Assembly: GCA_001627925.1 (NCBI GenBank) | Contig: LUQC01000024.1 | Coordinates: 1-51,857 of the forward strand | Source of the DNA: Rhodobacteraceae bacterium REDSEA-S34_B6 | Lineage (GTDB): Bacteria; Pseudomonadota; Alphaproteobacteria; Rhodobacterales; Rhodobacteraceae | Reading direction: 5' to 3' | Length of the DNA stretch: 51,857 nt | Shown: one piece after another, positions 4,016 to 26,496 of the stretch | Layout: the number at the start of each line of letters is the position of its first letter | Numbering within the stretch: the stretch's first letter is position 1 | Program-made: the position numbers and the translations under genes | The notes under the pieces: model-generated | Seen by the model: the letters and a program-made list of their open reading frames with translations, nothing else | Databases searched by the model: none | What the model was told of the DNA's origin: nothing

Positions 4016-4684
4016 TTACATTGCCGCCAAAGTATGCTCCAAACCATTTAATATGTGTTCTTCCAATATATCTGCAGCACCAGATGCATTTCTATCTAAA
4101 GCGGCTTGAAAAATTTTGTGATGTTCCTGTGCGGCTTCATCTCCCCGGAAAGTAAGAACCAACATTTGATATCTGAGATACTTATCGTAAAGAGTAGAGT
4201 GTAATTCCAGTAGGTTTCTTGAATTACAAGCCTGTATAACAGCTAAATGAAATTCCCAATCATAGCGCTTCCAAGTCTCCTTTTCCGAGCTGTCTCCGGA
4301 AATCATTTTTTTCTCCATCAACTGTAATTTATGGTGAGCTGCAACCAAGTTACCTTCCCAATCAGCATCTCCATTTTCCACAGAGGTTTTAAGTGCATGA
4401 CATTCTAAGAGTACTCTAAGTTTAGCAACTTCCGTTAAATCCTCCCTAGATACCTTTGTTACAAAAAAGCCTCTTTGCTCTTCCGCCAGGACAAATCCTT
4501 CGCTTGCGAGTCTGTTTAATGTCTCTCTTAGCGTTGAAACACTGGCTTCGTATTTAGTTTTTATGACTTCGAGCTTTAGCTTTGATCCAGGAGCAAGTTC
4601 GCCAAAAATAATATCGTGTTTTATTTTCTCATAAGTAGACGAGCCAACTGTGCTTAATTGTTTTTCCATTACCAAATATACCAT
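4016..4684 (-). CDS. GntR-family transcriptional regulator, FCD (FadR/VanR) subfamily
   Basis: 222 residues: an N-terminal winged helix (YEKIKHDIIFGELAPGSKLK, then VSTLRETLNRLASEGFV, the GntR recognition helix) and a C-terminal all-helical FCD domain. That domain shows candidate metal-site residues in YDWEFHLAV, LHSTLYDKY and EEHILNGL. FCD regulators usually repress catabolic genes and release DNA on binding an organic acid. A second Met at codon 6 is an alternative start. The gene is divergent from the Gfo/Idh dehydrogenase at 4892 and near the TRAP block. A sequence resembling sites elsewhere overlaps its own start codon (4674-4690), which suggests autoregulation. Confidence 0.9.
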   Translation of the reverse strand: MVYLVMEKQLSTVGSSTYEKIKHDIIFGELAPGSKLKLEVIKTKYEASVSTLRETLNRLASEGFVLAEEQRGFFVTKVSREDLTEVAKLRVLLECHALKTSVENGDADWEGNLVAAHHKLQLMEKKMISGDSSEKETWKRYDWEFHLAVIQACNSRNLLELHSTLYDKYLRYQMLVLTFRGDEAAQEHHKIFQAALDRNASGAADILEEHILNGLEHTLAAM

Positions 4685-4776
4685 ATAATTTTTTTTTTCT
4701 CTTATGATTAGGCAGAGAGAAATTTTTTTTCAAGTTTTATAAATATATGTATAAACCAAAAATACCATATAATATT
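4674..4776. promoter_or_regulatory. Candidate operator pair of the GntR regulator
   Basis: The 12-base string ATACCATATAAT occurs twice, at 4678-4689 (overlapping the regulator's start codon) and at 4762-4773, 84 bases apart. Both lie in the divergent space before the dehydrogenase. The second copy, read as AAAATACCATATAATATT, closely matches the inverted repeat upstream of the TRAP genes (AAAATATCATATATTTT, 5974-5990). AATATTGCAA directly after the second copy also recurs at 5997-6006. Seen directly; binding by the adjacent GntR protein is inferred. Confidence 0.45.
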
Positions 4777-4891
4777 GCAATCCTCAATTTTTTTGCTTAC
4801 CAATGAGTCTGGGAGTTTTGGGAGTTTTGTTCGGAGATTTGGATTTTGCGCAATAGCAAAATGTGATCTCAGAGCTAAAGATAATAAGCAA

Positions 4892-5935
4892 ATGAGTGAC
4901 ACTATAAAATTGGTTATTGCAGGCCTGGGACTTGTAGGTAAGCGTCATGCTGATGCAATAGTCAAAGAAGATGACATTGATCTTATTGCAATTGTTGATC
5001 CAAGCGAAGACGCGGTAAATTATTCAAACAAAAACAATTTACCGATATATCCTTCTTTAGAAGATATGTTCCTAAAGGAATTACCAGACGGTGTTATATT
5101 GGCCACGCCAACGCCGATGCATGCAGAGCATGCTATGTATTGCCTAAATAAAAAGTGTCCAATAATGCTCGAAAAGCCAATAGCGACTTCCTCCGAAGAA
5201 GCCCGTGCGCTAGTTGAGGCATCTGAGCACTTTGAAATTCCAGTACTTGTCGGTCACCACAGACGGCACAATCCAATAATTCAGAAGGCCCGTGAAATCA
5301 TTCTTTCTGGTGAGATTGGCCAAATAAGAGCAATTCATGCTAATTGTTGGTTTTATAAGTCTGATGACTACTTTGAAATAGCTCCCTGGAGAAAACAAAA
5401 AGGGGCTGGTCCAATTTCTGTAAATCTTGTTCATGATATAGATCTTATTAGGCATTTGTGTGGTCAAGTAGAAAGTGTACAAGCACAATGCTCACCGTCT
5501 ATTCGTGGATTTGAAAATGAGGATCTGGCGGCAGCACTTTTGAAATTTGAAAATGGAGCAATTGGCACGATAACCGTTTCAGACTCCATAGTTGCCTCTT
5601 GGAGTTGGGAAATGACTTCAAAGGAAAATCCAATTTATCCATCAACTTCCGAAAGTTGTTATGTGATTGGTGGAACGCACGGTTCACTTTCTATTCCAGA
5701 TTTAACAGTCTGGACGCATAAAGAGAAACGCGATTGGTGGAAACCAATAACTTCAGCTTCAGTTTCCTATGAGCCAGCCGATCCACTTCAAAATCAACTT
5801 AGACATTTTCTGAATGTGGTAAAAAATAATGAAAAACCATTAGTTTCTGGCCGTGAGGGTTTTAGGACTCTACAAGTTATTGAGGCAATTCAGAAATCAG
5901 CATTGACTCAGCAATCTGTAAAAGTAGAGACTTGA
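4892..5935 (+). CDS. Gfo/Idh/MocA family NAD(P)-dependent dehydrogenase
   Basis: 347 residues from the ATG at 4892. The frame runs 39 codons further upstream, but those codons do not look like protein, and the Rossmann strand KLVIAGLGLVGKRHADAI begins just after this Met. EKPIATSSEEA holds the catalytic Lys of the EKP motif. HDIDLIRHLCG in the second domain supplies the Asp and His typical of inositol- and sugar-oxidising members. Cytosolic. The divergent position from the GntR regulator and location before the TRAP genes suggest oxidation of the transported sugar- or cyclitol-like compound. Substrate unknown. Confidence 0.88.
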   Translation: MSDTIKLVIAGLGLVGKRHADAIVKEDDIDLIAIVDPSEDAVNYSNKNNLPIYPSLEDMFLKELPDGVILATPTPMHAEHAMYCLNKKCPIMLEKPIATSSEEARALVEASEHFEIPVLVGHHRRHNPIIQKAREIILSGEIGQIRAIHANCWFYKSDDYFEIAPWRKQKGAGPISVNLVHDIDLIRHLCGQVESVQAQCSPSIRGFENEDLAAALLKFENGAIGTITVSDSIVASWSWEMTSKENPIYPSTSESCYVIGGTHGSLSIPDLTVWTHKEKRDWWKPITSASVSYEPADPLQNQLRHFLNVVKNNEKPLVSGREGFRTLQVIEAIQKSALTQQSVKVET

Positions 5936-6076: not shown

Positions 6077-7087
6077 ATGATTACTAAATTAACTCGCCGT
6101 TCGGTTTTGAGTACGATAGCTGCAGCAAGCATGCTTGCAGGTACGACAGCGACTACAGTTGCTGCAGACCAAATGACATTTACGTTGGCAACAGCTGGCT
6201 CAGAGACAGATATGAGATCGGCCGCTATGGCAAAAGTGTTTGCGCCTATGGTTGCGGGCTTTGCAGATTATCAGCCTGGGTATAATGCTACTTTGTTTGC
6301 TCAGGGAACAGAGCTTGAAGCCATAAGCCGTGGGAATTTGACTATGTCGATCGCTTCTGCGCAAGAACTGGCACAGTTTTTCCCAGAGTTCTCAATTTTT
6401 GCTACTGGCTATGTCCATCAGGATGCAGCTCATCAGGTCCGCGTTTTCAATGATCCACTAATGGATCCATTCAAGAAAACTGTAGAGGACGAATTGGGAG
6501 TAAAACTACTCTCTGTTATGTACCTTGGACGGAGACATGTGAATTTGCGCCAAACTCGAGATGAGGTTGATGTGCAAACACCGGCAGACTTAGCTGGTGT
6601 TAACCTAAGGATGCCAGGTACAGATGCGTGGCAGTTTCTTGGTTCCGCTCTAGGAGCTTCGCCTACACCTTTTGCGTTTACAGAAGTGTACACAGCACTA
6701 TCCACTGGAGCTGTTGATGGACAAGATAATCCTTTACCTACGGTAGTAGACGCTAAGTTTTACGAAGTGACAAAACAAATTGCTCTTACATCGCATTTAG
6801 TAGACCTAAACTATGTGGCATTTTCCAAAGCGACATGGGATAGCTTATCGCCTGAGCAGCAAATGACAGTTCAGCGCGCCGCTGATGCAGCATCAGCATG
6901 GGGTCGTCTGAAGCAGCTAGACAAAGAGAACAATTTGGCAGATTTTATTAGAAGCCAAGGAGTTGAAATATACACTCCGGATCTTGATGCTTTCCGAACT
7001 CACGTTCAGGCGCAATATGTTGGAAGTGAGTTTGCAGCAAGTTGGCCAGACGGTGTATTGGAAAAAATCAACGCGCTTGGTAACTAA
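6077..7087 (+). CDS. dctP: TRAP transporter substrate-binding protein, DctP family
   Basis: 336 residues, the normal length for DctP proteins. The N-terminus LTRRSVLSTIAAASMLAG, followed by TTVAAD, is a signal peptide with a twin-arginine-like RRS motif and a cleavage site after VAA. The mature part has the DctP pattern: LATAGSETDM at the start, LRMPGTDAW, and the helix region FTEVYTALSTGAVDGQDNPL that is diagnostic of the family and contains the Asn and Asp near the ligand carboxylate. It binds an organic acid in the periplasm and delivers it to the DctQM membrane complex encoded next. GGGAGGA ribosome site before the ATG. The ligand is not predictable. Confidence 0.93.
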   Translation: MITKLTRRSVLSTIAAASMLAGTTATTVAADQMTFTLATAGSETDMRSAAMAKVFAPMVAGFADYQPGYNATLFAQGTELEAISRGNLTMSIASAQELAQFFPEFSIFATGYVHQDAAHQVRVFNDPLMDPFKKTVEDELGVKLLSVMYLGRRHVNLRQTRDEVDVQTPADLAGVNLRMPGTDAWQFLGSALGASPTPFAFTEVYTALSTGAVDGQDNPLPTVVDAKFYEVTKQIALTSHLVDLNYVAFSKATWDSLSPEQQMTVQRAADAASAWGRLKQLDKENNLADFIRSQGVEIYTPDLDAFRTHVQAQYVGSEFAASWPDGVLEKINALGN

Positions 7088-7117
7088 ACTCTGACGCATA
7101 CTGTGAGGGAGTCAAAT

Positions 7118-7723
7118 ATGCAAAAATTTGCAAACCGGCTCACTCGCGGATCTGAATTTATCGCCGCCATTATTTTGGCGGCGATTTTTATTATTTTTCT
7201 GCTGCAAATTTTTGCTCGTTATATTTCAAAGATAGCTTGGCTGATGCCGATTGAGTCGGTATCAAATTGGATGTCGTCCGTCGAACCAATCGGCTGGACA
7301 ATAAATCTCATATCACTTCTTTGGGTATGGCTGATCTTTTTTGGTTGCGCTTTTATAGTTAAAGAACGTGATCATGTGACATTCGATATCCTTTATTTAG
7401 CTTTCCCTGACCATTTAAGAAAAGTAGCGATGATCATAATTTCACTCATAATGATTTTTGTTTTACTTTGGTCGTTTTTACCCACTTGGGAGGCAATATT
7501 TGGTAGCCGCCTGATGGAATTAAAGAAAATCCAAACTTTAAAAATTCCTATAACAGGAGATAAAATACCAATTAAATGGTTGTTTGCGTCTTATATTACA
7601 TTGATGATTGTCGTAATCTTACGCTATGCTTGGATTTGTTATGATGTTTCCAAAAATGGAGCTCCAAAAGGGGCTATAGAAGAGCTTTCAAAGACTCAAA
7701 AGGAAGAGCTCAATGAGTCTTGA
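7118..7723 (+). CDS. dctQ: TRAP transporter small permease, DctQ family
   Basis: 201 residues from the ATG at 7118, which follows GTGAGGGAG at good distance; the upstream GTG at 7103 lies inside that ribosome site. Four hydrophobic helices can be seen: IIFLLQIFARY, the TINLISLLWVWLIFFGCAF segment, MIIISLIMIFVLLW, and WLFASYITLMIVVILRYAW. The conserved pattern W-x-IFFGCAFIVKERDHVTFD between helices 2 and 3 is the family mark. It overlaps the start of dctM by 11 bases, so translation is probably coupled. It forms the membrane complex with DctM. Confidence 0.9.
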   Translation: MQKFANRLTRGSEFIAAIILAAIFIIFLLQIFARYISKIAWLMPIESVSNWMSSVEPIGWTINLISLLWVWLIFFGCAFIVKERDHVTFDILYLAFPDHLRKVAMIIISLIMIFVLLWSFLPTWEAIFGSRLMELKKIQTLKIPITGDKIPIKWLFASYITLMIVVILRYAWICYDVSKNGAPKGAIEELSKTQKEELNES

Positions 7724-9008
7724 GATATTAGCTGGTATTTTTGTACTATTTTCTATGGCAGCTTTGGGCGCACCTGTTGCCTATGCAATTCTATCAGGAA
7801 TTATCGTTTATCTGGGTGTTGCTGGTCAGGATCTCGCTATAGCGGGAGAAACGATGGTGCAAAGGCTTTTTGATGGCTTTCTTTTATTGGCAGTTCCTCT
7901 TTTTATTGTAACTGCAAATATAATGAATGCAGGTTCCATTTCAGATCGGTTACTCAGTTTTTGTGTGGCTGTGGTGGGAAGATTTAGAGGTGGTTTGGGT
8001 CATGTGAATGTCATGGCCTCACTAATATTTTCTGGCATGTCTGGTTCTGCAGTTGCTGATGCAGCCGGCATAGGAAAATTAGTTATAGAAATGATGGTAA
8101 AAAGTGGGCGCTACTCAAGAGGGTACGCAGCTGCAATTACAGCTGCAACGGCCACGATTGGACCGATCATTCCACCCTCTATTCCGATGGTATTATATGC
8201 TCTCGTTTCTAACACATCGATTGGGTCTTTGTTCTTGGCAGGTATATTGCCAGGTTTGATTATGGGTGCAGTTCTTATTGGTATGAATACTTTGATTTCC
8301 TATCGTCGGGATTTTGGAAAAGAAGAGCCAGTACCAATAAAGAAATTACCATTAATTACTTTAAAATCGTTTCCTGCGCTTTTAATGCCTGTGATACTCT
8401 TAACGTGCATATATAGTGGTGTAACTTCACCGACAGAGGCGGCAGCAATAGCAGCTCTGTATGCTTTTATTCTGGCAGCTGGTTTCTACCGCGCATTGAC
8501 AGTTAAGTCACTCTATCAGTTATTTGTAGACAGTGCACGCTCATCGGCGTCCGTTGCGCTGGTAATTGGTGCGTCAATGATTTTGACTTACGTAGTTGTA
8601 AAAGAAAATATCCCACAAACTTTATCAGAATTATTAGCAGGAGCAGAAATTAGCCCAATCATATTTCTACTTTTAATAAATTTACTGATCCTTTTAGTTG
8701 GCTGTATTTTAGATGCTACTGTGATTATTTTAGTAATTGTGCCTTTATTTATACCTACATGTGAGGCTCTCGGCATAGATCTTGTACATTTTGGAGTATT
8801 GGTGGTCGTAAACTCAATGATAGGTTTGATTACGCCACCGTATGGAATGCTGCTCTTTGTTATCAATGCTGTAACGGATATTCCATTGCGTGAAATAATA
8901 GGCGAAATCTGGGCTTTTTTAGCAGTCTTAATTTTTGCTTTGTTGATCATGATTTTTTCACCAAATATGGTCTTATGGTTGCCCAGATTATTTGGCTACC
9001 AGGGCTGA
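7713..9008 (+). CDS. dctM: TRAP transporter large permease, DctM family
   Basis: 431 residues with about twelve hydrophobic segments, the length and layout of DctM, the sodium-driven transport subunit. Family motifs include PLFIVTANIMNAGSISDRL, SGMSGSAVADAAGIG, ITAATATIGPIIPPSIPMVLY (the first Pro-rich hairpin), and the second repeat VVVNSMIGLITPPYGMLLFV. The start overlaps the end of dctQ. Downstream the catabolic genes continue on the same strand after 50 bases. It completes the TRAP uptake system for the compound handled by the enzymes encoded up to 19076. Confidence 0.95.
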   Translation: MSLEILAGIFVLFSMAALGAPVAYAILSGIIVYLGVAGQDLAIAGETMVQRLFDGFLLLAVPLFIVTANIMNAGSISDRLLSFCVAVVGRFRGGLGHVNVMASLIFSGMSGSAVADAAGIGKLVIEMMVKSGRYSRGYAAAITAATATIGPIIPPSIPMVLYALVSNTSIGSLFLAGILPGLIMGAVLIGMNTLISYRRDFGKEEPVPIKKLPLITLKSFPALLMPVILLTCIYSGVTSPTEAAAIAALYAFILAAGFYRALTVKSLYQLFVDSARSSASVALVIGASMILTYVVVKENIPQTLSELLAGAEISPIIFLLLINLLILLVGCILDATVIILVIVPLFIPTCEALGIDLVHFGVLVVVNSMIGLITPPYGMLLFVINAVTDIPLREIIGEIWAFLAVLIFALLIMIFSPNMVLWLPRLFGYQG

Positions 9009-9061
9009 AAAATGGTTTTTGTTAGTTCTGCAATAGTTGAATACGCTGTAGGAAGCTGATG

Positions 9062-10951
9062 ATGTCATTATCAATTCAAGCAACTTGGTTACGCGGTGAT
9101 ATAAGGTCTAAATTAAGCAGAATATCAAAAGCTAAGTTCAAGTCTATAGAACTTACTGAGAATGACTTAATTGATGCAAAAGAAGATGGTGAAGACCTAA
9201 AGGCTTTGTTGTTTGACTATGGATTAAGACTATCCATTTTCGAAATTTCTTCCAACCTTCAGGGGATAAATAATAATCCAGATAAAGAAACCATAAAAAA
9301 GATAGATTTAAAATTTGAGGCCGCTAAATTCCTTGGTTCAAATTTAATCCTCCTGAAATCTACAATATTAAAACAAAATTACTTGGACTGTTCGTCAATT
9401 GATCGAGCTTTGAAATACATCGCTTTGCGTGCATCGCATTTTCGTATCCGTGTTGCTTATATGAACATACCAACTGATGTTTCGATTGGTAAGTTAGATC
9501 CTGCGATAAAAATAATTGAGTCAATTGGTAGCCCATATCTTGGTTTGGCTATTAATTCTCTTTATGCCTTATCAAATGGGTCAAGGCCCTCGGAATTACG
9601 CGATGTGCCCATTCATCGTATTTTTCATGTTCAGCTTTGTGATGGATATGTGCAGCAGCCTGCTAGTGAAGAGCATTCGCATCATAGTGACATGTTACCT
9701 GGCCAAGGAAATCTTAACTTAGCAGGTTTTGTCAAAGTTATTGCTGCTAGTGGATATAAAGGTAGTTGGTCGCTTGCAAAAATTGATAGTAAAAAAGCAA
9801 AAGAAAGTTTTATAGACAACGCATATGACGCTTACAGAGCATTAGTTAGTCTTCTTGATAAAGTTGAACGTAGCGATCCACAAATAAAATTTGAAACACC
9901 CAATATGCCTGCCAGAGTTTATACTTCAGGCGTTGAATTTCTTGAATTTTCTGTTGATGATGAAAGCCACTATCAAATTACACAAATTTTATCATCTTTA
10001 TGTTTTCGCATGGAAAGAAAACACATATCAAAGGCTGTTGAGCTATGGCGCCAAGGGTCTGTGAACATAGTTCTTAATAATGAAAAAAAAGGGTTCTCGC
10101 GTAGTTCATTTTTAGAACATGGGCCCTCCTTATGTGCGATAGGTCTGCGTGTAAGAGACTCTGCGGATACAGTAGAGAGAGCCTCAGCGTTAGGTGCAAG
10201 TTTATTTAGCCAAGCTGTTGGTTCTAGTGAGTTAGAAATTCCTGCAATAAATGGTGTTGGTGAAAGTCTTGTGTACTTTATTGATGAACAGTCCGATTTA
10301 CATCGTGTATGGGATATAGAATTTAACCCGGTTAACAAATCGGAAGCCGTACAACCTTGTGGTGTAAGACGAATTGATCATATTGCTCAGACAATGAAGT
10401 TTGATGAAATGCAAAGTTGGTTACTGTATTATATCTCAACCTTCGAGATGGAGAAAAAACCAGTAGTCGATGTAATTGATCCATCAGGAGTTATTTACAG
10501 TCAGGTTTTAGAGAGTCCGGAAGGTGAAGTGAGGTTAAATTTAAATGGAGCAGATAATAGTGAAACGTTTGCTTCTAAATTTCTTACAAGCCGTTTTGGT
10601 GCTGGAACCCAGCACATTGCGTTACTTTCTGACGATATATTTGAAACTTCAAAAATCCTTGAAGCTTCACGGTTTGAGAGACTTCAAATGCCTGATGAGT
10701 ATTATAACGATTTAAAACAAAAATACGGACTAGCCGAAGATTTTGTAAACAAGCTTCAAACTTCTAATATTCTTTATACAAAGAATAATGGGGAATATTT
10801 TCAAATATATTCAGCACCAATTTTTGATGGTTTCTTTTTCGAAATTGTTGAAAGACGCGATCAATACCAGGGTTATGGTTCAAGAAATGCCTCTGCTCGT
10901 TTAGCTGCTCAAAGTAATTATAAACAAGCAGATAGGACCGCATATGTGTAA
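9062..10951 (+). CDS. QuiC-like fusion: TIM-barrel (3-dehydroshikimate dehydratase-type, metal site degenerate) plus HPPD-like domain
   Basis: 629 residues from the second of two adjacent ATGs (AGGA 8 bases upstream). Residues 1 to about 270 match the AP-endonuclease-type TIM barrel of bifunctional QuiC/QuiC1 proteins; about 285-620 are the vicinal-oxygen-chelate, 4-hydroxyphenylpyruvate-dioxygenase-like half. In QuiC1 the barrel metal is held by Glu134, Asp165, Gln191 and Glu239. Here the colinear positions read Met134 (VAYMNI), Asn165 (LAINSL), Gln191 (HVQLCD) and Ala239 (WSLAKI), so three ligands are gone. The HPPD-like half keeps its facial triad: His440 (RIDHIAQ), His518 (TQHIAL), Glu594 (FFEIVE). 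Dehydroshikimate dehydration by this protein is therefore doubtful; the iron/metal domain may be the active part. A standalone barrel at 14977 keeps all ligands. Confidence 0.85.
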   Translation: MSLSIQATWLRGDIRSKLSRISKAKFKSIELTENDLIDAKEDGEDLKALLFDYGLRLSIFEISSNLQGINNNPDKETIKKIDLKFEAAKFLGSNLILLKSTILKQNYLDCSSIDRALKYIALRASHFRIRVAYMNIPTDVSIGKLDPAIKIIESIGSPYLGLAINSLYALSNGSRPSELRDVPIHRIFHVQLCDGYVQQPASEEHSHHSDMLPGQGNLNLAGFVKVIAASGYKGSWSLAKIDSKKAKESFIDNAYDAYRALVSLLDKVERSDPQIKFETPNMPARVYTSGVEFLEFSVDDESHYQITQILSSLCFRMERKHISKAVELWRQGSVNIVLNNEKKGFSRSSFLEHGPSLCAIGLRVRDSADTVERASALGASLFSQAVGSSELEIPAINGVGESLVYFIDEQSDLHRVWDIEFNPVNKSEAVQPCGVRRIDHIAQTMKFDEMQSWLLYYISTFEMEKKPVVDVIDPSGVIYSQVLESPEGEVRLNLNGADNSETFASKFLTSRFGAGTQHIALLSDDIFETSKILEASRFERLQMPDEYYNDLKQKYGLAEDFVNKLQTSNILYTKNNGEYFQIYSAPIFDGFFFEIVERRDQYQGYGSRNASARLAAQSNYKQADRTAYV

Positions 10952-10993: not shown

Positions 10994-11803
10994 ATGAAAA
11001 AGGTTGATGAAGCTGAAGCATTAGGCAACTGGTGGAAAACTTCTATCATTGATATGGAGCCTGGCCGTATTGAATTTCGCGGTCATCCAATACAAGACTT
11101 AATCGGTACAGTAACCTTTCCACAAATGATTTGGTTAATGATAAGAGGGGATCTTCCAAGTTTGGATGAGGCAGCACTCTTTGAGGCTGCTTTAGTTGCC
11201 GCAGTTGATCACGGCCCACAGGCACCGTCTATTGCTGCAGCTAGAATGGCTATAACCTGCGGTTTGAGTATAAATAATGCAATGGGTTCTGCAGTGAATA
11301 TGTTGGGTGATATCCATGGTGGTGCAGGTGAACAATGTGCGGAACTATTTTATGATATAGACGAAAAAATGTCTAAAGGCCTTGAGCTTCAAGAGGCAGT
11401 CAAATTGGGCATTGACGGGTGGAATGCTACTCATGGGAAAATCGTTTCTGGTTTTGGGCACCGGTTTCATAAACCAAATGATCCAAGAGCACCTCGCATT
11501 ATGGCTCTAATTAGAGAAGCCGCATCGAGAAACATAGTATCGGGAAAATTTGCTGAAATCGCAGAAGCTGTACAACGCGAAATTGCAGCTCGGCGTGGCG
11601 GCCGTCCTATTGCAATGAATATTGACGGTTCAACAGCTGCCGTTTTTTGTGAATTGGGCTTTCCTCCGCCACTTTCGAGAGGTTTGTTTTGTATCTCTAG
11701 ATCTGTGGGTATTCTTGCACACTCCTGGGAACAGCTTAATCAAGGGGGGCGAAATAAGGGACCAATGCCTCCAAATTATCTGCCAAAATTTGAGGCAGAT
11801 TGA
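10994..11803 (+). CDS. Citryl-CoA lyase / short citrate-synthase-fold protein
   Basis: 269 residues, much shorter than citrate synthase (about 370-430) but like the standalone citryl-CoA lyase or the C-terminal domain of ATP-citrate lyase. All three catalytic residues of the fold are present: His108 in DIHGGAGEQ, His156 in FGHRFHKPNDPRAP and Asp211 in MNIDGSTAAVFCELGFPP. It should cleave or form a C-C bond next to an acyl-CoA, releasing or using acetyl-CoA and a keto acid. The small N-terminal domain is cut down. ATG start after AAGGACAAG. Next gene follows after 3 bases. Its place in a block with an acylating aldehyde dehydrogenase suggests a CoA-ester step in the pathway. Confidence 0.8.
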   Translation: MKKVDEAEALGNWWKTSIIDMEPGRIEFRGHPIQDLIGTVTFPQMIWLMIRGDLPSLDEAALFEAALVAAVDHGPQAPSIAAARMAITCGLSINNAMGSAVNMLGDIHGGAGEQCAELFYDIDEKMSKGLELQEAVKLGIDGWNATHGKIVSGFGHRFHKPNDPRAPRIMALIREAASRNIVSGKFAEIAEAVQREIAARRGGRPIAMNIDGSTAAVFCELGFPPPLSRGLFCISRSVGILAHSWEQLNQGGRNKGPMPPNYLPKFEAD

Positions 11804-11806
11804 CCA

Positions 11807-13000
11807 ATGAATCTTGCAAAGAAAGCTTTTCAAATAGGTCTTATTGGCACTGGTCGGATAAGCGATATTTATTTAGAAAATTGTTTAAAATTCCCAGAGT
11901 TAAATATTGCAGCTTGTGGTAGCCTTGATCAAGAGGAGGCTGAAAAAAAGGCGAAAAAATATGGCATAAAAAGAATATGCCTCCCTGAAGAAATAATTTG
12001 TGATAAGTCGATTGATTGCATTTTGAATCTTACCGTCCCGGCTGCTCATGCAGAAATCAGCAGGAAGTCACTGATAGCGGGGAAGCATGTATATTCTGAA
12101 AAACCTTTTGCGACCTCTGTTTCAGATGGTGAAGAAATCTTAAAGTTAGCAAAAGAAAAAAACTTAAAGGTTGGAAATGCCCCAGATACCTTTTTAGGTG
12201 GCCGGTGGCAAACCGTCCGTAAAATACTAGACGATGGAATTATAGGGAAACCGTTAGGTGTTATGGCGTACGTTGGAACTCATGGCGTTGAAAGGCATAA
12301 TCCTAATCCAGATTTCTACTATAAAAAAGGTGGTGGGCCGCTTTTAGATCTTGGGCCATATTACCTTACTGCAATGGTATCTTTACTAGGGCCAATAAAG
12401 CGCGTTTCTGGAATGGCTTCCCGTTCCTTTTCGCATAGAGAGATAGAAAATGGTCCGCGATATGGCGAATTAATTGCAGTTGAAGTGGAGACACACTCTC
12501 TATCAACATTAGAATTTTCAAACGGGATACTCGGTTCAATGACGATGAGTTTCGACATATGGGATAGTGATACACCCAGATTTGAAATATACGGCGAAGC
12601 AGGTACCATATGTATTCCTGACCCTGATCCTGTTCATGGTGCAAATGTTTTTCAAGGTCCTGTTTATTATCGCACCAGAGCAGATTCAAGATGGGAGTTT
12701 CAGCCAAGGCCAAAGGATCGTGAAAACTGGAATGTGGCAAATAACTTACATGGGTTTAATGAAGATAGTAGAGGTTTAGGTCTTTTAGACTTGGCGTATT
12801 CAATTCAAGAAGACAGACCTGTGCGCCCTAGTGGTGAACTTGCCCATCATGTTTTGGAGGTAATGTGTGGAATACAGGAGTCTTCTCAGAAAAATATATC
12901 GGTAAGCATTCAAAGTAGTTGTATCAGGCCCGCGCCCCTTCCCGTTAGTTTTCCAAAGAAAGCAAAGGGAATTGAAGAGGAATTACAGAATGTCAGTTGA
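11807..13000 (+). CDS. Gfo/Idh/MocA family dehydrogenase (397 aa)
   Basis: Rossmann start IGLIGTGRISDIYLENC with GxGxxS-type loop, then YSEKPFATSVSDG containing the catalytic Lys, and GGGPLLDLGPYYLTAMVSLLG, the Asp-x-Gly-x-Tyr/His region of the C-terminal domain. This resembles the 1,5-anhydro-sugar or scyllo-inositol dehydrogenase side of the family more than the 347-residue protein at 4892. It starts 3 bases after the lyase stop with GAGGCAG as ribosome site, and its end overlaps the next start by 11 bases, so it is in an operon. Reaction: NAD(P)-linked oxidation or reduction of a sugar or cyclitol hydroxyl; substrate unknown. Confidence 0.88.
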   Translation: MNLAKKAFQIGLIGTGRISDIYLENCLKFPELNIAACGSLDQEEAEKKAKKYGIKRICLPEEIICDKSIDCILNLTVPAAHAEISRKSLIAGKHVYSEKPFATSVSDGEEILKLAKEKNLKVGNAPDTFLGGRWQTVRKILDDGIIGKPLGVMAYVGTHGVERHNPNPDFYYKKGGGPLLDLGPYYLTAMVSLLGPIKRVSGMASRSFSHREIENGPRYGELIAVEVETHSLSTLEFSNGILGSMTMSFDIWDSDTPRFEIYGEAGTICIPDPDPVHGANVFQGPVYYRTRADSRWEFQPRPKDRENWNVANNLHGFNEDSRGLGLLDLAYSIQEDRPVRPSGELAHHVLEVMCGIQESSQKNISVSIQSSCIRPAPLPVSFPKKAKGIEEELQNVS

Positions 13001-13649
13001 AGAGATTAAAATCGGAGATCCTTTTTTTTCGGTGAAATTAATAAAAAGTAACAAGAATATTTTTGTGAACGGAAAGGCGATCGTTTTAAATTTATCGAAT
13101 TCTCCATTGAAGATAAGGCAACAAGTGCTCGGGCATTTACAATCAGTAATTGTAATTGATACCGCACTTACTGATGTCCAATGCGCTGTTCTTATCGAAG
13201 GTCTATCAAATCATCTAAGCGATAGTGATTTACTTAAAAAAGTGTGTATGAAATGGCCAACTGCATTTGAAGTCAGAAAAGAGGAGCGTTTGCGAGGCGT
13301 TGAACACTATATGTCTCCTAAGCAGTGGGTTGGTCAGATTGGATTGACTTTTTATTGCTCAATGTCGGTGCCGTTGAAAGTAGGCTTACATAAAGATCAT
13401 CCATTTTGCCCTTTGCCTGGTTTTCGAGAGGTACATACTCAGGTCATAGGAGTTGGCAAAATGCAGCAGTGCTATCAGAAAGATATACGATCTTTATATA
13501 TTGAAGAATTAATGGCGCCAGGGGTTACTCACAGGCCAATGTATGATGCCGATGGAAATTATCCATGGCATCAATATGAAACGGTTACACCATCAATATT
13601 TATGGCGGTCGAAATGCTTCCAGATGGCGCTAGTCCACCAAATAGTTGA
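12990..13649 (+). CDS. Unrecognised protein, 219 aa, possible cupin-like fold
   Basis: I do not recognise this family. The start is the ATG at 12990, which follows GAAGAGG and overlaps the preceding stop. The C-terminal half is rich in well-spaced polar residues that look conserved: GLHKDHPF, FREVHTQVIGVGKM, YIEELMAPGVTHRPMYD and YPWHQYET. Alternating strands with His/Glu/His look like a double-stranded beta-helix (cupin-type) metal site, but this is pattern reading only. There is no signal peptide or membrane segment. It sits between two Gfo/Idh dehydrogenases in an operon, so a role in the same pathway (isomerase, lactonase, epimerase or accessory) is likely. Confidence 0.75.
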   Translation: MSVEEIKIGDPFFSVKLIKSNKNIFVNGKAIVLNLSNSPLKIRQQVLGHLQSVIVIDTALTDVQCAVLIEGLSNHLSDSDLLKKVCMKWPTAFEVRKEERLRGVEHYMSPKQWVGQIGLTFYCSMSVPLKVGLHKDHPFCPLPGFREVHTQVIGVGKMQQCYQKDIRSLYIEELMAPGVTHRPMYDADGNYPWHQYETVTPSIFMAVEMLPDGASPPNS

Positions 13650-13656
13650 GGTAAAT

Positions 13657-14853
13657 ATGACTGAAAAAATTCTTCCAGAGAAGATAACTTTTGAAAAAAA
13701 ATTTCCAAAGTTTAAAAGACGCTTAAGGTTAGGTATCGTCGGGGGTGGTAGAATTTCTCAAACGCAGGCTATGGCAGCCCGTCTTACTAATCGATGGGAG
13801 GTCGTGGCAGGAGCATTCTCATCTGATCCCAAAAATTCCAAGAGACGTGCTGAAGAGCATTTTATTTCTGATGAGCGGGCTTATAGCTCATTTGAAGAGA
13901 TGGCTATCAAGGAAGCGAAGAGGCGAGATAGAATTGACGCAGTAATGATTACAACGCCCAATCACTTGCATCATGAAGTTGCAAAGGTGTTTATTGAAGC
14001 TGGGATCGATGTAATTTGCGACAAGCCCCTAACTAATGCTACTCCTGAAGCAGAGATGCTTGAAGATTTACTTTCTAAGGAAAATGTAAATTTTTGCGTA
14101 TGCTATACGATGTCATGTTTTCCAATGGTAAGGCAGGCGAGAGAGTTTGTTACTGCTGGTAAGATTGGAAATATTAATCAAATACATGTAGAATTTTTAC
14201 AGGATTGGATGGTGCCGGAAGAGGCTTTGCTGGCACCCCATGTTAAGTGGCGACTGGATCCAAAAATATCAGGACCAACAAGCTGTGTTGGGGATATTGG
14301 AACGCATGCAGCGCATTTAGCTCAATTTGTTTCAAGTTTAAAGTTGACGGATGTAAAAGCAGAATTTCATGTTTGTGGTGCCCCGAAAGCTTTGGAAGAT
14401 ACGGCATTTATGATGACTAGATACGAGGGCGGGGTTCCAGGAACATTGTTAGCTACCCGACTAGCTACTGGTAAAAGGGGTGGCCTAAACCTAAGAATAT
14501 ATGGTTCTGAGGGAGGAATTGAATGGAATTTGGAAAGTAGCGAAGAATTAAAACTAAGTGTTTATGGAAAACCAGATCAAACCATCAGTCGTGGTCATGG
14601 TCATGGTGTGTCATCTGATACAGAGCGGTTGGTGCGAACTGCAAGGGGTTTTTCGGAAGGGATAATCGAAGCGTGGGCAAATCTTTATTCAGAGTTTGCA
14701 ATTGCAGTGGCTGCGCGTCTTGATGAAAAGGAATTACCTAAAAATTTGCTGAGTTTTCCAACTATTTCTGAAGGGGTGGCTGGCGTTCGTTTTATTGAAG
14801 CATCCGTACTATCAAACTCGAAAGGTGGGACGTGGATACCGATAAACGGATAA
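13657..14853 (+). CDS. Gfo/Idh/MocA family dehydrogenase (398 aa)
   Basis: The ATG at 13657 follows GTTGAGG and lies 7 bases after the previous stop; 38 codons of open frame upstream overlap that gene and are not used. About 35 residues precede the Rossmann strand LRLGIVGGGRISQTQAMAAR. ICDKPLTNATPEAE holds the EKP-type Lys (here DKP). GDIGTHAAHLAQFV gives the Asp and His of the active site. The residues HGHG near the C-terminus and length of about 390 match the longer sugar dehydrogenases of this superfamily. It is the last gene before the promoter at 14894. Third Gfo/Idh enzyme of the block, suggesting successive oxidation and reduction at different carbons. Confidence 0.88.
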   Translation: MTEKILPEKITFEKKFPKFKRRLRLGIVGGGRISQTQAMAARLTNRWEVVAGAFSSDPKNSKRRAEEHFISDERAYSSFEEMAIKEAKRRDRIDAVMITTPNHLHHEVAKVFIEAGIDVICDKPLTNATPEAEMLEDLLSKENVNFCVCYTMSCFPMVRQAREFVTAGKIGNINQIHVEFLQDWMVPEEALLAPHVKWRLDPKISGPTSCVGDIGTHAAHLAQFVSSLKLTDVKAEFHVCGAPKALEDTAFMMTRYEGGVPGTLLATRLATGKRGGLNLRIYGSEGGIEWNLESSEELKLSVYGKPDQTISRGHGHGVSSDTERLVRTARGFSEGIIEAWANLYSEFAIAVAARLDEKELPKNLLSFPTISEGVAGVRFIEASVLSNSKGGTWIPING

Positions 14854-14922: not shown

Positions 14923-14976
14923 TGTTCATATTGGTTAAAAGCTATTTAATCGGATGTAATATTGGGGCTTTTAAAT

Positions 14977-15870
14977 ATGACTGATATGAATAATCAGGGC
15001 ATTGAAAAAAGCTTATATTCTCTTGCACACCTAACTTTGATTGGTGCGACTCCTGCTGAGCTCGTGTATATTGCTGCTCGTGCTGGATATGATGCGGTTA
15101 GCCCCAGATTTATACCAATGCATGTTGCTGGTGAGTTCAAACACTCTCCTATCCAAAAGGATCAGATAATTGCCACAAAAACGGCTCTCGCTACCACTGG
15201 GTTAAAAGTCCTTGACGTCGAAATCGCTCGGATCACTGACGAGACGGATCCGCGGTCCTTTGTGCCAGCACTAGAGCTGGGTGGGGAGCTAGGTGCGAAA
15301 CAAATGATTATGAGTGCATGGACAAAGACCAGGGATGATAGAAGTTTCCTGATTGATACATATGCGGAAACATGTGATTTAGCAGCTCCTTTCGGTATCA
15401 CTGTAGACTTAGAGTTCCCAAGCTTTTCTAGACTGAGAACCCTAGACGATGCTTTAGACATTGTTCGAGCTGCAAATAAACCAAATAGCGGTATACTTAT
15501 TGACACATTATATCTGCACTTGAGCCGCGTAGATATTGGAGAATTGCTTCACGTTCCTAGTGAATTTCTCCATTTTTTGCATGTTTCAGATTGTTTGCCT
15601 GGCATCGCTGACACGCGGGCCGGGATGATTCAATTAGCACGAGATGCGCGATTATATCCAGGTGAAGGTTGGATAGATTTTAAAGGAATAATAGAGCGAA
15701 TGCCTCCAGTTCACTACTCTATAGAATTACCAAATCAGAGCCGTGTTTTGGAATTAGGATATGAAGAACACGCAAGGCGTTGTCTTGAATACGCCAAACG
15801 AACTTTTGGAAAAGTTGTGTCAAAGAGAAGAAAAACAGCTGAAAAAAATGACTTAGTATTACAAGATTAG
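14977..15870 (+). CDS. Sugar phosphate isomerase/epimerase-type TIM barrel
   Basis: 297 residues from the ATG at 14977 (GGGG 9 bases upstream); the in-frame TTG at 14962 lies within the leader. It is a xylose-isomerase-like TIM barrel with a complete metal site: Glu146 (VDLEFPSF), Asp176 (ILIDTLYL), His202 (LHVSDC) and Glu250 (YSIELPN). The YPGEGWIDFKGI segment and the position of the ligands match the IolE/IolI/hydroxypyruvate isomerase/dehydroshikimate dehydratase group. It is cytosolic and should isomerise, epimerise or dehydrate a keto-sugar or keto-cyclitol. It contrasts with the QuiC-like barrel of the same block, which lost its ligands. The next gene starts 9 bases later. Confidence 0.85.
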   Translation: MTDMNNQGIEKSLYSLAHLTLIGATPAELVYIAARAGYDAVSPRFIPMHVAGEFKHSPIQKDQIIATKTALATTGLKVLDVEIARITDETDPRSFVPALELGGELGAKQMIMSAWTKTRDDRSFLIDTYAETCDLAAPFGITVDLEFPSFSRLRTLDDALDIVRAANKPNSGILIDTLYLHLSRVDIGELLHVPSEFLHFLHVSDCLPGIADTRAGMIQLARDARLYPGEGWIDFKGIIERMPPVHYSIELPNQSRVLELGYEEHARRCLEYAKRTFGKVVSKRRKTAEKNDLVLQD

Positions 15871-15879
15871 AGGAAAAGA

Positions 15880-17289
15880 ATGGGCCGAGAAATTACTGAA
15901 AAAGAGCAAGCTCTAGTTGATAAAATGGTCTCTAAAGCAAAGTCCGCGATGGTAAAGATAGAAAATTGGACGCAGAGAGACCTTGATCGGTTAAGCCAAG
16001 CAATTGCATGGTACGCGGGTAATGAAAAAACCTTCACAAGGCTTGCTCAACAGGGCGTGGATGAAAGTGGCATTGGGGATAGGGCTGGGCGCCCAGGAAA
16101 AAGATTTAAAATTCACATGGTCCTCAGGGATGTTTTGCGCACCCCATCCACTGGTATTGTGGAAACTGATGCTAAGAGAGGATTAGTAAAATATGCAAAG
16201 CCAGCGGGAGTTATTGCTTCGTTGATACCTATGACTAACCCCGCCATGACACCGCCGGTAACGGGTGTATCATCTGCAAATGCAAGAAACGCAGTTATTT
16301 TTTCTCCTCATCCCAGAACAGCTGCAACTACCTGTGAGATGTCACGTATAATGCGAGCGGCTTGTCATGCAGTAGGAGCACCAGAAGACTTATTTCAATG
16401 TATTGAACGGCCTTCCATACCAATGACACAATACCTAATGGAGAGTTGCGATTTAACTTTGGCAACGGGCGGGAAGCCTATGGTTCAAGCTGCTTATTCT
16501 TCAGGAAAGCCTGCTTATGGAGTTGGGGCTGGTAACAGCACGATAGTCGTAGATGAAACTGCGGATCTTAATGAAGCAGCGAAGAATATTATGATTTCAA
16601 AGACATCGGACTTTGGCTCTGGGTGTTCTGCTGATGGGAATATAGTAATTCAGAAATCTATTTATAGTAATATGGTCTCTGAGCTCCAGGCAAATAATGG
16701 ATATCTATGCAATAGTGCTGAAAAAGAGTTATTATCTAGAGCGATGTGGGATAATAAAGAAAACCGCACATTCTCCACGATTGCCTGTAAACCTCAACAG
16801 CTTGCCTTAGTCGCAGGTTTTGAAATCCCCGAACATATCAAATTCCTTATGGTCGAGAATAATGGACAAATTGGGAGGGAACATAAATTTTCAAAGGAAA
16901 AGCTCACGACCCTAATGGCTTTATATTATTTTGAGGAGTTTCCCGATGCACTTAATATTATTCAAAAGATTTATGAGGTAGGGGGAAAAGGGCACTCTTG
17001 TGGAATACACAGTACTAGTGACAAGAATATAGATGCTTTAGCTAGAGTTGCTCCAGTTAGCCGCATGATGGTTCGTCAGCCTCAATCAAAATCCAATGCA
17101 GGATCTTGGACGAACGGTATGCCAATGACTAGTTCATTAGGTTGTGGAATTTGGGGTGGGAATATTACAAATGAAAACGTAACCATGAAGCACATGATGA
17201 ACTACACCTGGGTGAGTAAACCAATACAGGAAGATCGCCCTTCTGAGCGAGAGCTTTTTGGGGAGTTCTTTGGTCAGGAGGTTGCATGA
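15880..17289 (+). CDS. CoA-acylating aldehyde dehydrogenase (SauS/AdhE-type)
   Basis: 469 residues. The sequence follows the acylating branch of the aldehyde dehydrogenase superfamily: LVKYAKPAGVIASLIPMTNP, then VIFSPHPRT, the cofactor region YGVGAGNSTIVVDE, and the catalytic Cys249 in KTSDFGSGCSADGN. There is no Glu268-type general base motif of the hydrolytic enzymes. It converts an aldehyde plus CoA and NAD(P)+ to an acyl-CoA. The closest named type I recall is sulfoacetaldehyde dehydrogenase (acylating); succinate-semialdehyde and acetaldehyde versions look similar, so the substrate stays open. It overlaps the ThDP enzyme gene by four bases (ATGA), which suggests the ThDP enzyme makes the aldehyde. 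Confidence 0.87.
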   Translation: MGREITEKEQALVDKMVSKAKSAMVKIENWTQRDLDRLSQAIAWYAGNEKTFTRLAQQGVDESGIGDRAGRPGKRFKIHMVLRDVLRTPSTGIVETDAKRGLVKYAKPAGVIASLIPMTNPAMTPPVTGVSSANARNAVIFSPHPRTAATTCEMSRIMRAACHAVGAPEDLFQCIERPSIPMTQYLMESCDLTLATGGKPMVQAAYSSGKPAYGVGAGNSTIVVDETADLNEAAKNIMISKTSDFGSGCSADGNIVIQKSIYSNMVSELQANNGYLCNSAEKELLSRAMWDNKENRTFSTIACKPQQLALVAGFEIPEHIKFLMVENNGQIGREHKFSKEKLTTLMALYYFEEFPDALNIIQKIYEVGGKGHSCGIHSTSDKNIDALARVAPVSRMMVRQPQSKSNAGSWTNGMPMTSSLGCGIWGGNITNENVTMKHMMNYTWVSKPIQEDRPSERELFGEFFGQEVA

Positions 17290-19076
17290 TGAAAGATCTT
17301 ACTAAAGATAAAACCGGTCAAACGGTAGCTGAGCATATTGTCGAGTTTTTGAGACACCGTGGTGTTAAGCATGTATTTGGTTTGTGTGGTCATACTAATA
17401 TTGCGGTATTATCAGCTCTAGAAAAAAGTGAAATAGACTTTGTCACGGTTCGTCATGAACAAATTGCTAGCCATGCTGCAGATGCCTATGCGCGCGTGAC
17501 TGGAAAAGCATCGGTTGTTTTATCACATGTGTCTCCTGGACTAACAAATTGTGCAACTGGGGTGGCAAATGCTGCTTTGGATTGTATTCCAATGGTGGTA
17601 ATCGCAGGAGATGTTCCAACTCACTATTATGGTAAACATCCACATCAAGAAGTAAATCTTCATGCCGACGCACAGCAGTATGAAATTTATCGTCCCTTTG
17701 TAAAAAGAGCGTGGAGAGTAGACCGCGCAGATTTAATGGCTGAGATACTTGAGAAGGCTTTTCACTTAGCTGAAAGTGGACAACCGGGCCCTGTTTTAGT
17801 CAATGTCCCTATGGACATATTTTCAGAGACTATCTTATCAACGAGTTTTGATCGAGTTAGGTCTAATACTAAAACTTTAATAAAGCCATCGATAGATGAT
17901 AAAGTAGCAGAAGAAATAGTAAATAAATTAGCCCAAGCGAAGCAGCCTATAGCATACGTTGGAGGGGGCATTTTATTAGCGAGAGCCAGTACTGAGCTTG
18001 AAGAGTTTATAGATTATATGGATTTGCCTCTTGCACACAGTTTAATGGGTAAGGGTGCGGTTAGCGATGATCATCCTTTGGTACTGGGAATGAGTGGATT
18101 TTGGGGTACTTCACTTGTAAATGAGGCATGCTTACAAGCAGACTATATATTTGCTCTTGGAACGCGATTTAAAGAAGCAGATTGTTCTAGTTGGTATCCT
18201 AACTATACATTCAACATACCTAAATCAAAGCTCATACATATTGATATTGAACCTCAGGAAATTGGGCGAAATTATCCGACAGAAGTTGGGATTGTGGCGG
18301 ATGTAAAATCGTCATTAAAAGTATTACTGCGTGCTGCAAAGAGACTATATCCCGGTGGCTTTGAGAGAAGAGAAAAAAGAGATCAGATTGCAGAATTTAG
18401 GGCAGATTTCAAAAATAAAAATCGAGAAGTAGCAGAGAGTAACGCTTTTCCAATGATGCCTGAAAGGATACTTGCTGATTTAAGAAAGATACTGCCCGCA
18501 AATGCTATAATTACAACAGATGTTGGATGGAACAAAAATGGTGTCGGCCAACAATTTTCAATTTTAGAGCCAGGCTCAATTTTGACACCAGGAGGGTTTG
18601 CCACAATGGGGTTTGGACCTCCAGCTGCTATTGGTGCTAAGTTAGCTGCTCCCGATAGAGTAGTTTTGAGCTTGGTAGGTGATGGTGGATTTGGGCAAAA
18701 CCCCTCAATGCTTGCGACTGCAGTTGAGTTGAATTTACATATTATTTGGTTAGTTATGAATAATAATGCTTTTGGTACAATTGCTGGCTTACAAAAGGCT
18801 CATTATGGCACGACATATGGAACATCTTTTCCTGGTACTGCAGCAGTACCTAAATATGGACCTAAATATAGTGAAATTGCCAAAGCATATGGCGCAGAGG
18901 GTATAAAAATTAAAACAGCGAGTGAACTTCTACCTGCCCTCGCCAAAGCCATTGAAAATGGCAAACCAACAGTACTTGATGTGCCAATGATTAATAATCC
19001 AACGCCAACAACTGGGCACTGGAACATTTTAGATATTTATTCTCCGGATAAAAATGTAAGTCATGTCTCAACTTGA
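17286..19076 (+). CDS. Thiamine diphosphate-dependent enzyme (acetolactate synthase/decarboxylase-like)
   Basis: 596 residues in three domains. The N-terminal pyrimidine-binding domain has VFGLCGHTNIAVL and the catalytic Glu58 in VRHEQIASHAADAYARVTG. The central domain runs about 205-345. The C-terminal diphosphate-binding domain has GDGGFGQN (Asp466) and VMNNNAFG (Asn493/494), the GDG-x-NN magnesium motif. Start overlaps the aldehyde dehydrogenase stop. Family members decarboxylate 2-keto acids, make acyloins or cleave diketo-cyclitols (IolD). Here it most simply supplies an aldehyde to the acylating dehydrogenase. The end motif is not that of sulfoacetaldehyde acetyltransferase. Last gene of the block; convergent with the transporter gene at 19147. 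Confidence 0.9.
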   Translation: MMKDLTKDKTGQTVAEHIVEFLRHRGVKHVFGLCGHTNIAVLSALEKSEIDFVTVRHEQIASHAADAYARVTGKASVVLSHVSPGLTNCATGVANAALDCIPMVVIAGDVPTHYYGKHPHQEVNLHADAQQYEIYRPFVKRAWRVDRADLMAEILEKAFHLAESGQPGPVLVNVPMDIFSETILSTSFDRVRSNTKTLIKPSIDDKVAEEIVNKLAQAKQPIAYVGGGILLARASTELEEFIDYMDLPLAHSLMGKGAVSDDHPLVLGMSGFWGTSLVNEACLQADYIFALGTRFKEADCSSWYPNYTFNIPKSKLIHIDIEPQEIGRNYPTEVGIVADVKSSLKVLLRAAKRLYPGGFERREKRDQIAEFRADFKNKNREVAESNAFPMMPERILADLRKILPANAIITTDVGWNKNGVGQQFSILEPGSILTPGGFATMGFGPPAAIGAKLAAPDRVVLSLVGDGGFGQNPSMLATAVELNLHIIWLVMNNNAFGTIAGLQKAHYGTTYGTSFPGTAAVPKYGPKYSEIAKAYGAEGIKIKTASELLPALAKAIENGKPTVLDVPMINNPTPTTGHWNILDIYSPDKNVSHVST

Positions 19077-24281: not shown

Positions 24282-24398
24282 TACACGCTACAGTAAAATG
24301 ATTGTTGAATCCACCTGGCTATTCTGTAATTCAAAGGCTTGACAGCCAGAACTGTATACTGCTTAGAATACTCTCTCAGGTCTGTGGAGAGCACTCAA

Positions 24399-26462: not shown

Positions 26463-26496
26463 TTGTTTCTGATAGTTTTAGGTTGGAGGTCAAAGA

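Follow-up and report, generated by a model that had tools for sequence, protein, structure and literature searches.

We analysed a 51,857-nucleotide stretch of the genome of Rhodobacteraceae bacterium REDSEA-S34_B6 (contig LUQC01000024.1, hereafter the window), which carries a gene for a two-domain protein related to the dehydratase QuiC1. The open reading frame occupies positions 9059-10951 of the forward strand, encodes 630 amino acids and opens with ATGATG; residues are numbered here from the second ATG, giving a QuiC-like fusion of 629 amino acids at 9062-10951. QuiC1 (5hmq) was its top PDB match (337 bits, phmmer), an end-to-end match with residues 2-621 of 630 aligned, and the protein contains the Pfam domains AP_endonuc_2 and Glyoxalase_5. 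Alignment to QuiC1 and clade comparison define an N-terminal TIM-barrel half that has lost its catalytic metal site (9062-9868). The C-terminal half (9911-10924), which resembles 4-hydroxyphenylpyruvate dioxygenase (HPPD), was recognised from Pfam, the PDB match, an alignment to the HPPD structure 1cjx and the constraint data given below.

Passages of PMC7442255 count E134, D165, Q191 and E239 among the active-site residues of QuiC1/QsuB. In the phmmer alignment, M134 (codon 9461-9463), N165 (9554-9556), Q191 (9632-9634) and A239 (9776-9778) of the fusion sit on these four positions, and only Q191 is retained. A preliminary description of the window had read the same Met, Asn, Gln and Ala at the ligand positions, and the end-to-end alignment to 5hmq confirmed this reading. 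Further changes affect the dehydratase site (R64 to Ser, H168 to Tyr and R210 to Asp), S206 being the only one of these four residues that is kept. Against the NCBIfam equivalog NF042435 (QuiC/QsuB), the fusion scored 401 bits, below the cut-off of 1200. Judged from its sequence by ligands, site residues or model cut-off, the fusion is not a QuiC dehydratase.

The HPPD-like half carries a complete facial triad: H440 (10379-10381), H518 (10613-10615) and E594 (10841-10843) align with H161, H240 and E322 of 1cjx, respectively, and the fusion also aligns triad-on-triad with QuiC1. The triad had been described before as complete, and both alignments bear this out.

To place the fusion among its relatives, 295 genomes of the family, 385 of the class and 398 of the phylum (overlapping sets) were searched, and a genome-contig scan was added. 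The resulting classification set comprised 182 distinct sequences, with the window protein and QuiC1 included. Defining the dead-barrel pattern as Asn at 165 with no Glu at 134 or 239, we found 21 dead barrels, 156 live barrels (E-D-Q/H-E), three odd barrels outside both groups (L061, CQQS; L156, ENHE; L157, EGHE) and two partial sequences without barrel columns (L269 and L279). E134, D165 and E239 were all lost in 21 of 21 dead-barrel proteins, and the 38 full-length sequences added last, the majority belonging to distant families or to classes elsewhere in the phylum, all had live barrels. Asn165 occurred in every dead-barrel protein and Gln191 in 16 of the 21, while Met, Leu, Ile, Arg, Ser or Gln stood at 134 and Ala, Gly or Ser at 239. 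Thus, of the Met/Asn/Ala triple once suggested as the mark of this group, Asn165 holds and Met does not. The intact triad, in turn, is present but not special to the fusion, since it was found in 174 of the 182 sequences, QuiC1 among them. The other eight have Gln in place of the second His and all possess live barrels, so that the triad was lost in 8 of 156 live-barrel and 0 of 21 dead-barrel proteins. These eight (L050, L244, L246, L248, L264, L265, L268 and L271) are a mirror image of the dead clade.

A tree of the HPPD-like half (65 rows: 21 dead, 41 live and three odd) placed all 21 dead-barrel proteins on one side of a branch with an SH-aLRT of 100; the tree rows and the per-position counts derive from an earlier set of 144 sequences in which two genes were present twice. 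The proteins that have lost the ligands therefore form a clade of their own, a grouping that the preliminary description had put forward for checking. L061, with its degenerate barrel, fell inside this clade on a long branch of unsure position. L156 (G012) and L157 (G114), both distant QuiC-like fusions, represent a separate change outside it. The dead clade was drawn from 17 genomes of the family sample (17/295), three relatives (L002, Rhodobacteraceae metagenome-assembled genome (MAG) MED-G08; L003, an Amylibacter MAG; L004, alpha proteobacterium HTCC2255) and one member of another family of the class (L035). L014 is truncated by a contig end and L005 is not a fusion; the fragments in G064 and a partial match in G239:C4 lie outside the classification. 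Live QuiC was found in none of the 17 dead-clade genomes but in 64 of the 278 others of the family sample (Fisher p 0.029, a test that ignores relatedness), which agrees with replacement of the live by the dead form. The G064 fragments, of dead type, lie beside a lyase gene at a contig end (L223, G064:C394, ~6494-8614) and reflect either a broken gene or an assembly fault.

Sequence constraint on the two halves was compared between dead and live proteins. Among the dead-barrel proteins (20 rows, 190 pairs, leaving aside L002, a near-copy of the window protein), mean identity was 42.9% in the barrel versus 64.4% in the HPPD-like half, and the barrel was lower in 190 of 190 pairs. The live sequences (n=156, 12090 pairs) showed the reverse, with 63.3% in the barrel versus 47.3% in the HPPD-like half and the barrel lower in only 12 of 12090 pairs. 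At a matched HPPD-half identity of 60-70%, barrel identity was 40.5% for dead (122 pairs) versus 77.9% for live sequences (1201 pairs). Constraint has thus swapped from the barrel to the HPPD-like half in the dead clade. Further substantiating this, the window protein and L002 differ with a dN/dS of 0.40 in the barrel versus 0.064 in the HPPD-like half (Fisher p 0.010), and 20 of their 24 amino-acid changes lie in the barrel; at 0.40, the barrel is therefore relaxed yet not free. Such a swap is what one would predict from the earlier proposal that the iron half is the working part and the barrel a scaffold or binder, the reverse of QuiC1, and it supports that proposal. As the stretches bearing QuiC1 positions 64, 206 and 210 are absent from 7 of the 21 dead proteins, a scaffold is favoured over a binder, at least in these. 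Pseudogene decay was considered and rejected, given the intact frame in dead-clade genomes and the low dN/dS of the HPPD-like half.

The pocket around the putative iron site retains residues typical of the keto-acid dioxygenases. All 22 dead-type sequences, L061 among them, have equivalents of S201, N216, Q239 and Q309 (1cjx numbering), as do, depending on the position, 35-39 of 39 live ones; being present in the live rows as well, the pocket is ancestral and not new. Phe337 of HPPD has an aromatic-stacking role, and its position is occupied by Ala in the window protein, in 20 of the 22 dead-type and in 38 of the 39 live sequences. The protein may resemble the HPPD-like oxygenases in its mode of action.

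The fusion lies in a block of catabolic genes that was compared across 21 dead and 29 live loci, the latter a selection and not a random draw, in which nine were taken because their solute-binding protein (SBP) gene is near the fusion and 20 because they headed the list of live sequences. In the window, a GntR/FCD regulator (4016-4684, reverse strand; 20/21 dead loci and 9/9 syntenic live loci) is followed on the forward strand by a Gfo/Idh/MocA dehydrogenase, Gfo1 (4775-5935; 19/21 dead and 8/9 syntenic live loci), and a tripartite ATP-independent periplasmic (TRAP) transporter. This consists of the SBP (6077-7087), whose nearest solved structure is 4pf6 (540 bits, 79% identity), and of small (7103-7723) and large (7713-9008) permease subunits named by position and size. 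Directly downstream of the fusion lies a gene for a citryl-CoA-lyase-like protein (10994-11803), which scored 418.6 bits against NF004864 (cut-off 261). Its H108, H156 and D211, which we take to be the catalytic His/His/Asp of the citrate-synthase type, were kept in 21 of 21 proteins compared, including that of Azoarcus. The block continues with a separable sub-block of Gfo2, a protein of no known family and Gfo3 (11807-14853; 9/21 dead and 2/9 syntenic live loci) and an IolI-like TIM barrel (14962-15870). For the latter, the preliminary description, which placed it at 14977, had noted a full set of four ligands, and we confirmed Glu, Asp, His and Glu in 19 of 19 loci. In a region alignment with IolI (1i60), three of the four ligand columns match and the fourth is Val in IolI, which we attribute to misalignment. 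Two further genes complete the block. One encodes an aldehyde dehydrogenase (ALDH) of the CoA-acylating, SauS/AdhE/EutE-like type (15880-17289; 418 bits against NF047625, under the cut-off of 600; catalytic Cys in 21/21) and the other an acetolactate-synthase-like thiamine-diphosphate (TPP) enzyme (17286-19076), whose RHEQ (TPP Glu) and GDG motifs were found in 22 of 22 proteins, Azoarcus included.

The same gene order (the regulator on the opposite strand, then Gfo1, TRAP SBP and permeases, fusion, lyase-like gene, the optional sub-block, IolI-like barrel, ALDH and TPP enzyme) is usual in the dead loci. The lyase-like gene was found in 21 of 21 dead versus 0 of 29 live loci, and the IolI-like, ALDH and TPP genes each in 20 of 21 dead versus one of 29 live loci (L201/L231). 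The exceptional dead locus, G294, has its TPP gene, the only one of the three looked for outside the locus, on another contig. GntR, TRAP and, in most cases, Gfo1 are common to the dead loci and nine live ones, whose SBPs are 61-87% identical to that of the window, and the dead cluster therefore looks like an altered version of a live operon. An HpaI-type aldolase was present in 5 of the 21 dead loci.

Several observations bear on the imported substrate. AroE (PRK12549 type; four proteins scanned) was found in six of the 21 dead and three of the nine syntenic live loci. Moreover, a cluster of Azoarcus sp. KH32C (pAZKH, NC_020548, L232) combines a TPP enzyme 64% identical to that of the window and a citryl-CoA lyase with AroE, AroD and a CoA transferase, and also holds a QuiC-type barrel and an HPPD-like protein. 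It differs from the window cluster in that the two halves are separate genes, that a CoA transferase takes the place of the acylating ALDH, and that AroE and AroD are present. TPP, lyase, CoA transferase and AroE genes also stand together on a Streptomyces plasmid, beside a branched-chain-type ATP-binding cassette transporter, and TPP, lyase and CoA transferase genes do so in Nonomuraea. The syntenic live loci, together with AroE and AroD near related TPP and lyase genes, point to a quinate/shikimate-type substrate. Two loci with close relatives of the lyase within the family were scanned. In both, a class III CoA transferase precedes the lyase, accompanied by TctABC in L225 and by an ordinary aldehyde dehydrogenase in L222. 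These contexts are compatible with a citryl-CoA-like substrate.

Considering the ligand loss, the single clade, the swap in constraint and the linkage of the dead barrel to the additional genes, we lean, if only by a little, towards the view that the fusion is a repurposed QuiC: its iron half would be the catalytic part, and the route would avoid the dehydratase step of the fusion itself. Its ancestor would have been a two-domain 3-dehydroshikimate dehydratase, probably already encoded in a GntR-Gfo-TRAP-(AroE)-QuiC operon. The catalytic metal site of the barrel would then have been lost, most simply once, with the barrel retained as a drifting but folded scaffold, while the HPPD-like half kept its 2-His-1-Glu site and keto-acid dioxygenase pocket and came under stronger constraint. 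This half is predicted to be a non-haem Fe(II) oxygenase acting on an oxidised, ring-derived or ring-opened keto acid, which would derive from an imported quinate/shikimate-type acid; it could either cleave a ring or decarboxylate a 2-oxo acid oxidatively. Since the operon also encodes the IolI-like barrel, the TPP enzyme, the acylating ALDH and the lyase, carbon would probably exit as a CoA thioester, from which the lyase would release acetyl-CoA and a 2-oxo acid, and not via protocatechuate made by the fusion.

A more specific route can be drawn from the chemistry of the putative substrate. C1 of quinate bears a hydroxyl group, a carboxyl group and two CH2 arms, which is the core of citrate. 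A CoA thioester on one arm after ring opening would therefore suit a citryl-CoA-lyase-like enzyme, and this likeness is why we think that a quinate/shikimate-type acid may be degraded without protocatechuate from the fusion. Following oxidation to 3-dehydroquinate, the TPP enzyme would open the ring beside the ketone, and the freed carbon would be converted to a CoA thioester by the acylating ALDH here and by a CoA transferase in Azoarcus and the actinobacteria. The lyase-like enzyme would cut the thioester to acetyl-CoA and a 4-hydroxy-2-oxo acid, which an HpaI-type aldolase could split into pyruvate and a C2 unit. That the cluster is such a non-aromatising quinate-type route, to which the iron half adds an O2-dependent step, is a tentative proposal, possible but on the whole rather doubtful. 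Among the matches listed in our literature searches, there was no published link of citryl-CoA lyase with quinate, shikimate dehydrogenase or thiamine, and no report of the cluster appeared among those listed for quinate/shikimate catabolism with Roseobacter or TRAP, or for KDO (3-deoxy-D-manno-octulosonic acid) with TRAP or KDO catabolism.

A number of points weigh against a repurposed iron half in a quinate-type route. The pocket residues and the Ala at the Phe337 position are common to live QuiC and hence no mark of a new activity. AlphaFold models built from four-row alignments were too poor, with a mean pLDDT of 36 for the SBP and 45 for the fusion, whose metal site could not be inspected in its model (AF2); the barrel ligands were checked by alignment only. 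At L201/L231, a live QuiC adjoins the IolI-like, ALDH and TPP genes without the lyase. In Azoarcus, the barrel keeps E-D-Q-D, whereas the HPPD-like protein is shortened at the C-terminus and has Asp at the place of the second His; as the barrel and not the HPPD part looks alive there, clusters of this kind can evidently do without an intact HPPD-type site. Within 9 kb, tblastn gave no match in the actinobacterial loci to the fusion, to the HPPD-like protein or to either of the barrels. Both observations argue against a fixed role for the iron half. L182 (G116:C14) has a window-like SBP (85%), TRAP permeases, Gfo1, AroE and an HpaI-type aldolase but neither fusion nor lyase in 19.8 kb. Finally, 4pf6 was presumably solved with KDO and not with quinate. 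Nothing on 4pf6 was found in parts of PMC5812351 or PMC5788505.

Four other explanations have to be set beside the repurposed QuiC. The whole fusion might be a non-catalytic or regulatory pseudo-enzyme that scaffolds the IolI-like barrel, ALDH and TPP enzyme, with the HPPD-like half as an oligomerisation or docking surface. Passages of PMC7442255 report that QsuB without its C-terminal half kept dehydratase activity and propose an oligomerisation role for that half, and that no activity towards protocatechuate was found; the clustering of the fusion with other enzymes in the 21 dead loci would also suit a scaffold. However, invariant iron ligands would not be needed for structure alone, and the complete triad and keto-acid-pocket residues are present in all dead-type members compared; we consider this explanation unlikely. 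It is less probable again that the barrel is still catalytic, either independently of metal or with ligands elsewhere, and that both halves are active. Some constraint does remain on the barrel (dN/dS 0.40), and polar positions unlike those of live QuiC (N165, H189, N219 and W236 in QuiC1 numbering) are each conserved in at least 19 of 21 members. Yet no new group of acidic, His or Cys residues is conserved among them, D35 and D194 being shared with live QuiC and H189 standing alone; a third of the members (7/21) lack the stretches bearing positions 64, 206 and 210, and barrel identity drops to 36-40% where the HPPD-like halves are 50-70% identical. All this makes an active barrel a distinctly improbable reading.

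The imported substrate could also be a 3-deoxy-ulosonic acid such as KDO, with the iron half acting directly on the 2-keto acid. The nearest solved SBPs, 4pf6 (reportedly solved with KDO) and then sialic-acid SBPs, speak for such a substrate. Nevertheless, none of nine TRAP loci with SBPs 80-88% identical to 4pf6 (L173-L181) contained the fusion or the lyase, and a Gfo1-like gene was found in one of the nine, so 4pf6 may serve another pathway than the window SBP. The SBPs of the live-QuiC loci with AroE (L183-L185), on the other hand, are 82, 86 and 87% identical to that of the window, and AroE stands beside TPP and lyase genes in Azoarcus and Streptomyces, together with AroD in Azoarcus. We regard a KDO-type substrate as quite unlikely, although somewhat less so than an active barrel. 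A mycosporine or gadusol substrate was considered as a further candidate because of its carbon skeleton. The last explanation, that the fusion serves tyrosine breakdown as a 4-hydroxyphenylpyruvate dioxygenase, would fit the HPPD fold and triad, and no second match to the fusion, hence no separate HPPD, was found in the source genome. We rejected tyrosine catabolism because of the Ala at the Phe337 position and because the source genome (95.5% complete) gave no match to hmgA (homogentisate dioxygenase); hmgA was found in 15 of 19 dead-type genomes, the source genome being among the four without. The fusion also scored 199.9 bits against the HPPD equivalog TIGR01263, short of the cut-off of 277. 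By cut-off, Phe337 position and genome context, the predicted protein is thus not an HPPD, and a role in tyrosine breakdown is hardly credible.

Compared with known systems, the repurposed fusion stands closest to QuiC1/QsuB (5hmq; NF042435), with which it shares end-to-end homology, domain order and the HPPD-like triad, and the nine live-type loci share GntR and TRAP with the dead ones and in three cases have AroE. Unlike QuiC1/QsuB, it keeps one metal ligand of four and few of the other dehydratase-site residues, its neighbours include the citryl-CoA-lyase-like, IolI-like, ALDH and TPP genes, and constraint has moved to the HPPD-like half. With HPPD itself (1cjx; TIGR01263) it has homology, the facial triad and the S201/N216/Q239/Q309 equivalents in common; it differs in the curated cut-off, the Ala for Phe337 and the lack of an hmgA match in its genome. 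The myo-inositol (Iol) pathway uses a Gfo/Idh/MocA dehydrogenase, IolI, a thiamine-dependent enzyme and a CoA-acylating aldehyde dehydrogenase. The likeness of the window cluster to it is an analogy in these four enzyme types only, the TRAP transporter and the citryl-CoA-lyase-like enzyme being different; the comparison covers the cluster genes, IolB, IolC and IolJ not having been searched for.

According to passages of PMC7442255, it is unknown what the HPPD-like half does in QuiC-type dehydratases. The dead-barrel clade, free of dehydratase background, would be a good place to find an activity of this half. If our reading of the neighbourhood is correct, marine bacteria would have a second way of breaking down quinate/shikimate-type compounds that does not pass through protocatechuate, and if the non-aromatising route is correct, the HPPD-like domain of QuiC would gain a real catalytic job.

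Protocatechuate 3,4-dioxygenase failed to discriminate between the two groups, as pcaH exceeded its cut-off in 11 of 19 dead-type versus 17 of 22 live-type genomes (Fisher p 0.31); the survey covered the 3,4-dioxygenase only, the 4,5-dioxygenase not having been searched for. Contig 15 of the source genome (56740-58016) carries two adjacent intradiol-dioxygenase-like genes that score under the pcaH cut-off, so this genome may still have a protocatechuate route.

Some further features of the loci deserve mention. In L231 (8732-14906, G114:C54), a QuiC with E-D-Q-E lies directly after IolI-like, ALDH and TPP genes (48, 64 and 68% identical to those of the window), an arrangement that could be an intermediate or a second use of this gene set. 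The protein of no known family (window 12972-13649; 218-225 amino acids) matched nothing in Pfam, NCBIfam or the PDB at the chosen thresholds and lies between Gfo2 and Gfo3 in the nine dead loci that have it as well as in two live-QuiC loci. Another genome of the same genus, G164, has this trio with the lyase but no fusion beside it (L217). Gfo3, as listed (13543-14853), overlaps the preceding gene by 107 bases, and an in-frame ATG at 13657 would remove this overlap. Further downstream, an old-yellow-enzyme-type reductase followed by a Rieske ring-hydroxylating oxygenase alpha subunit (24339-27711) may form a second catabolic block in the window.

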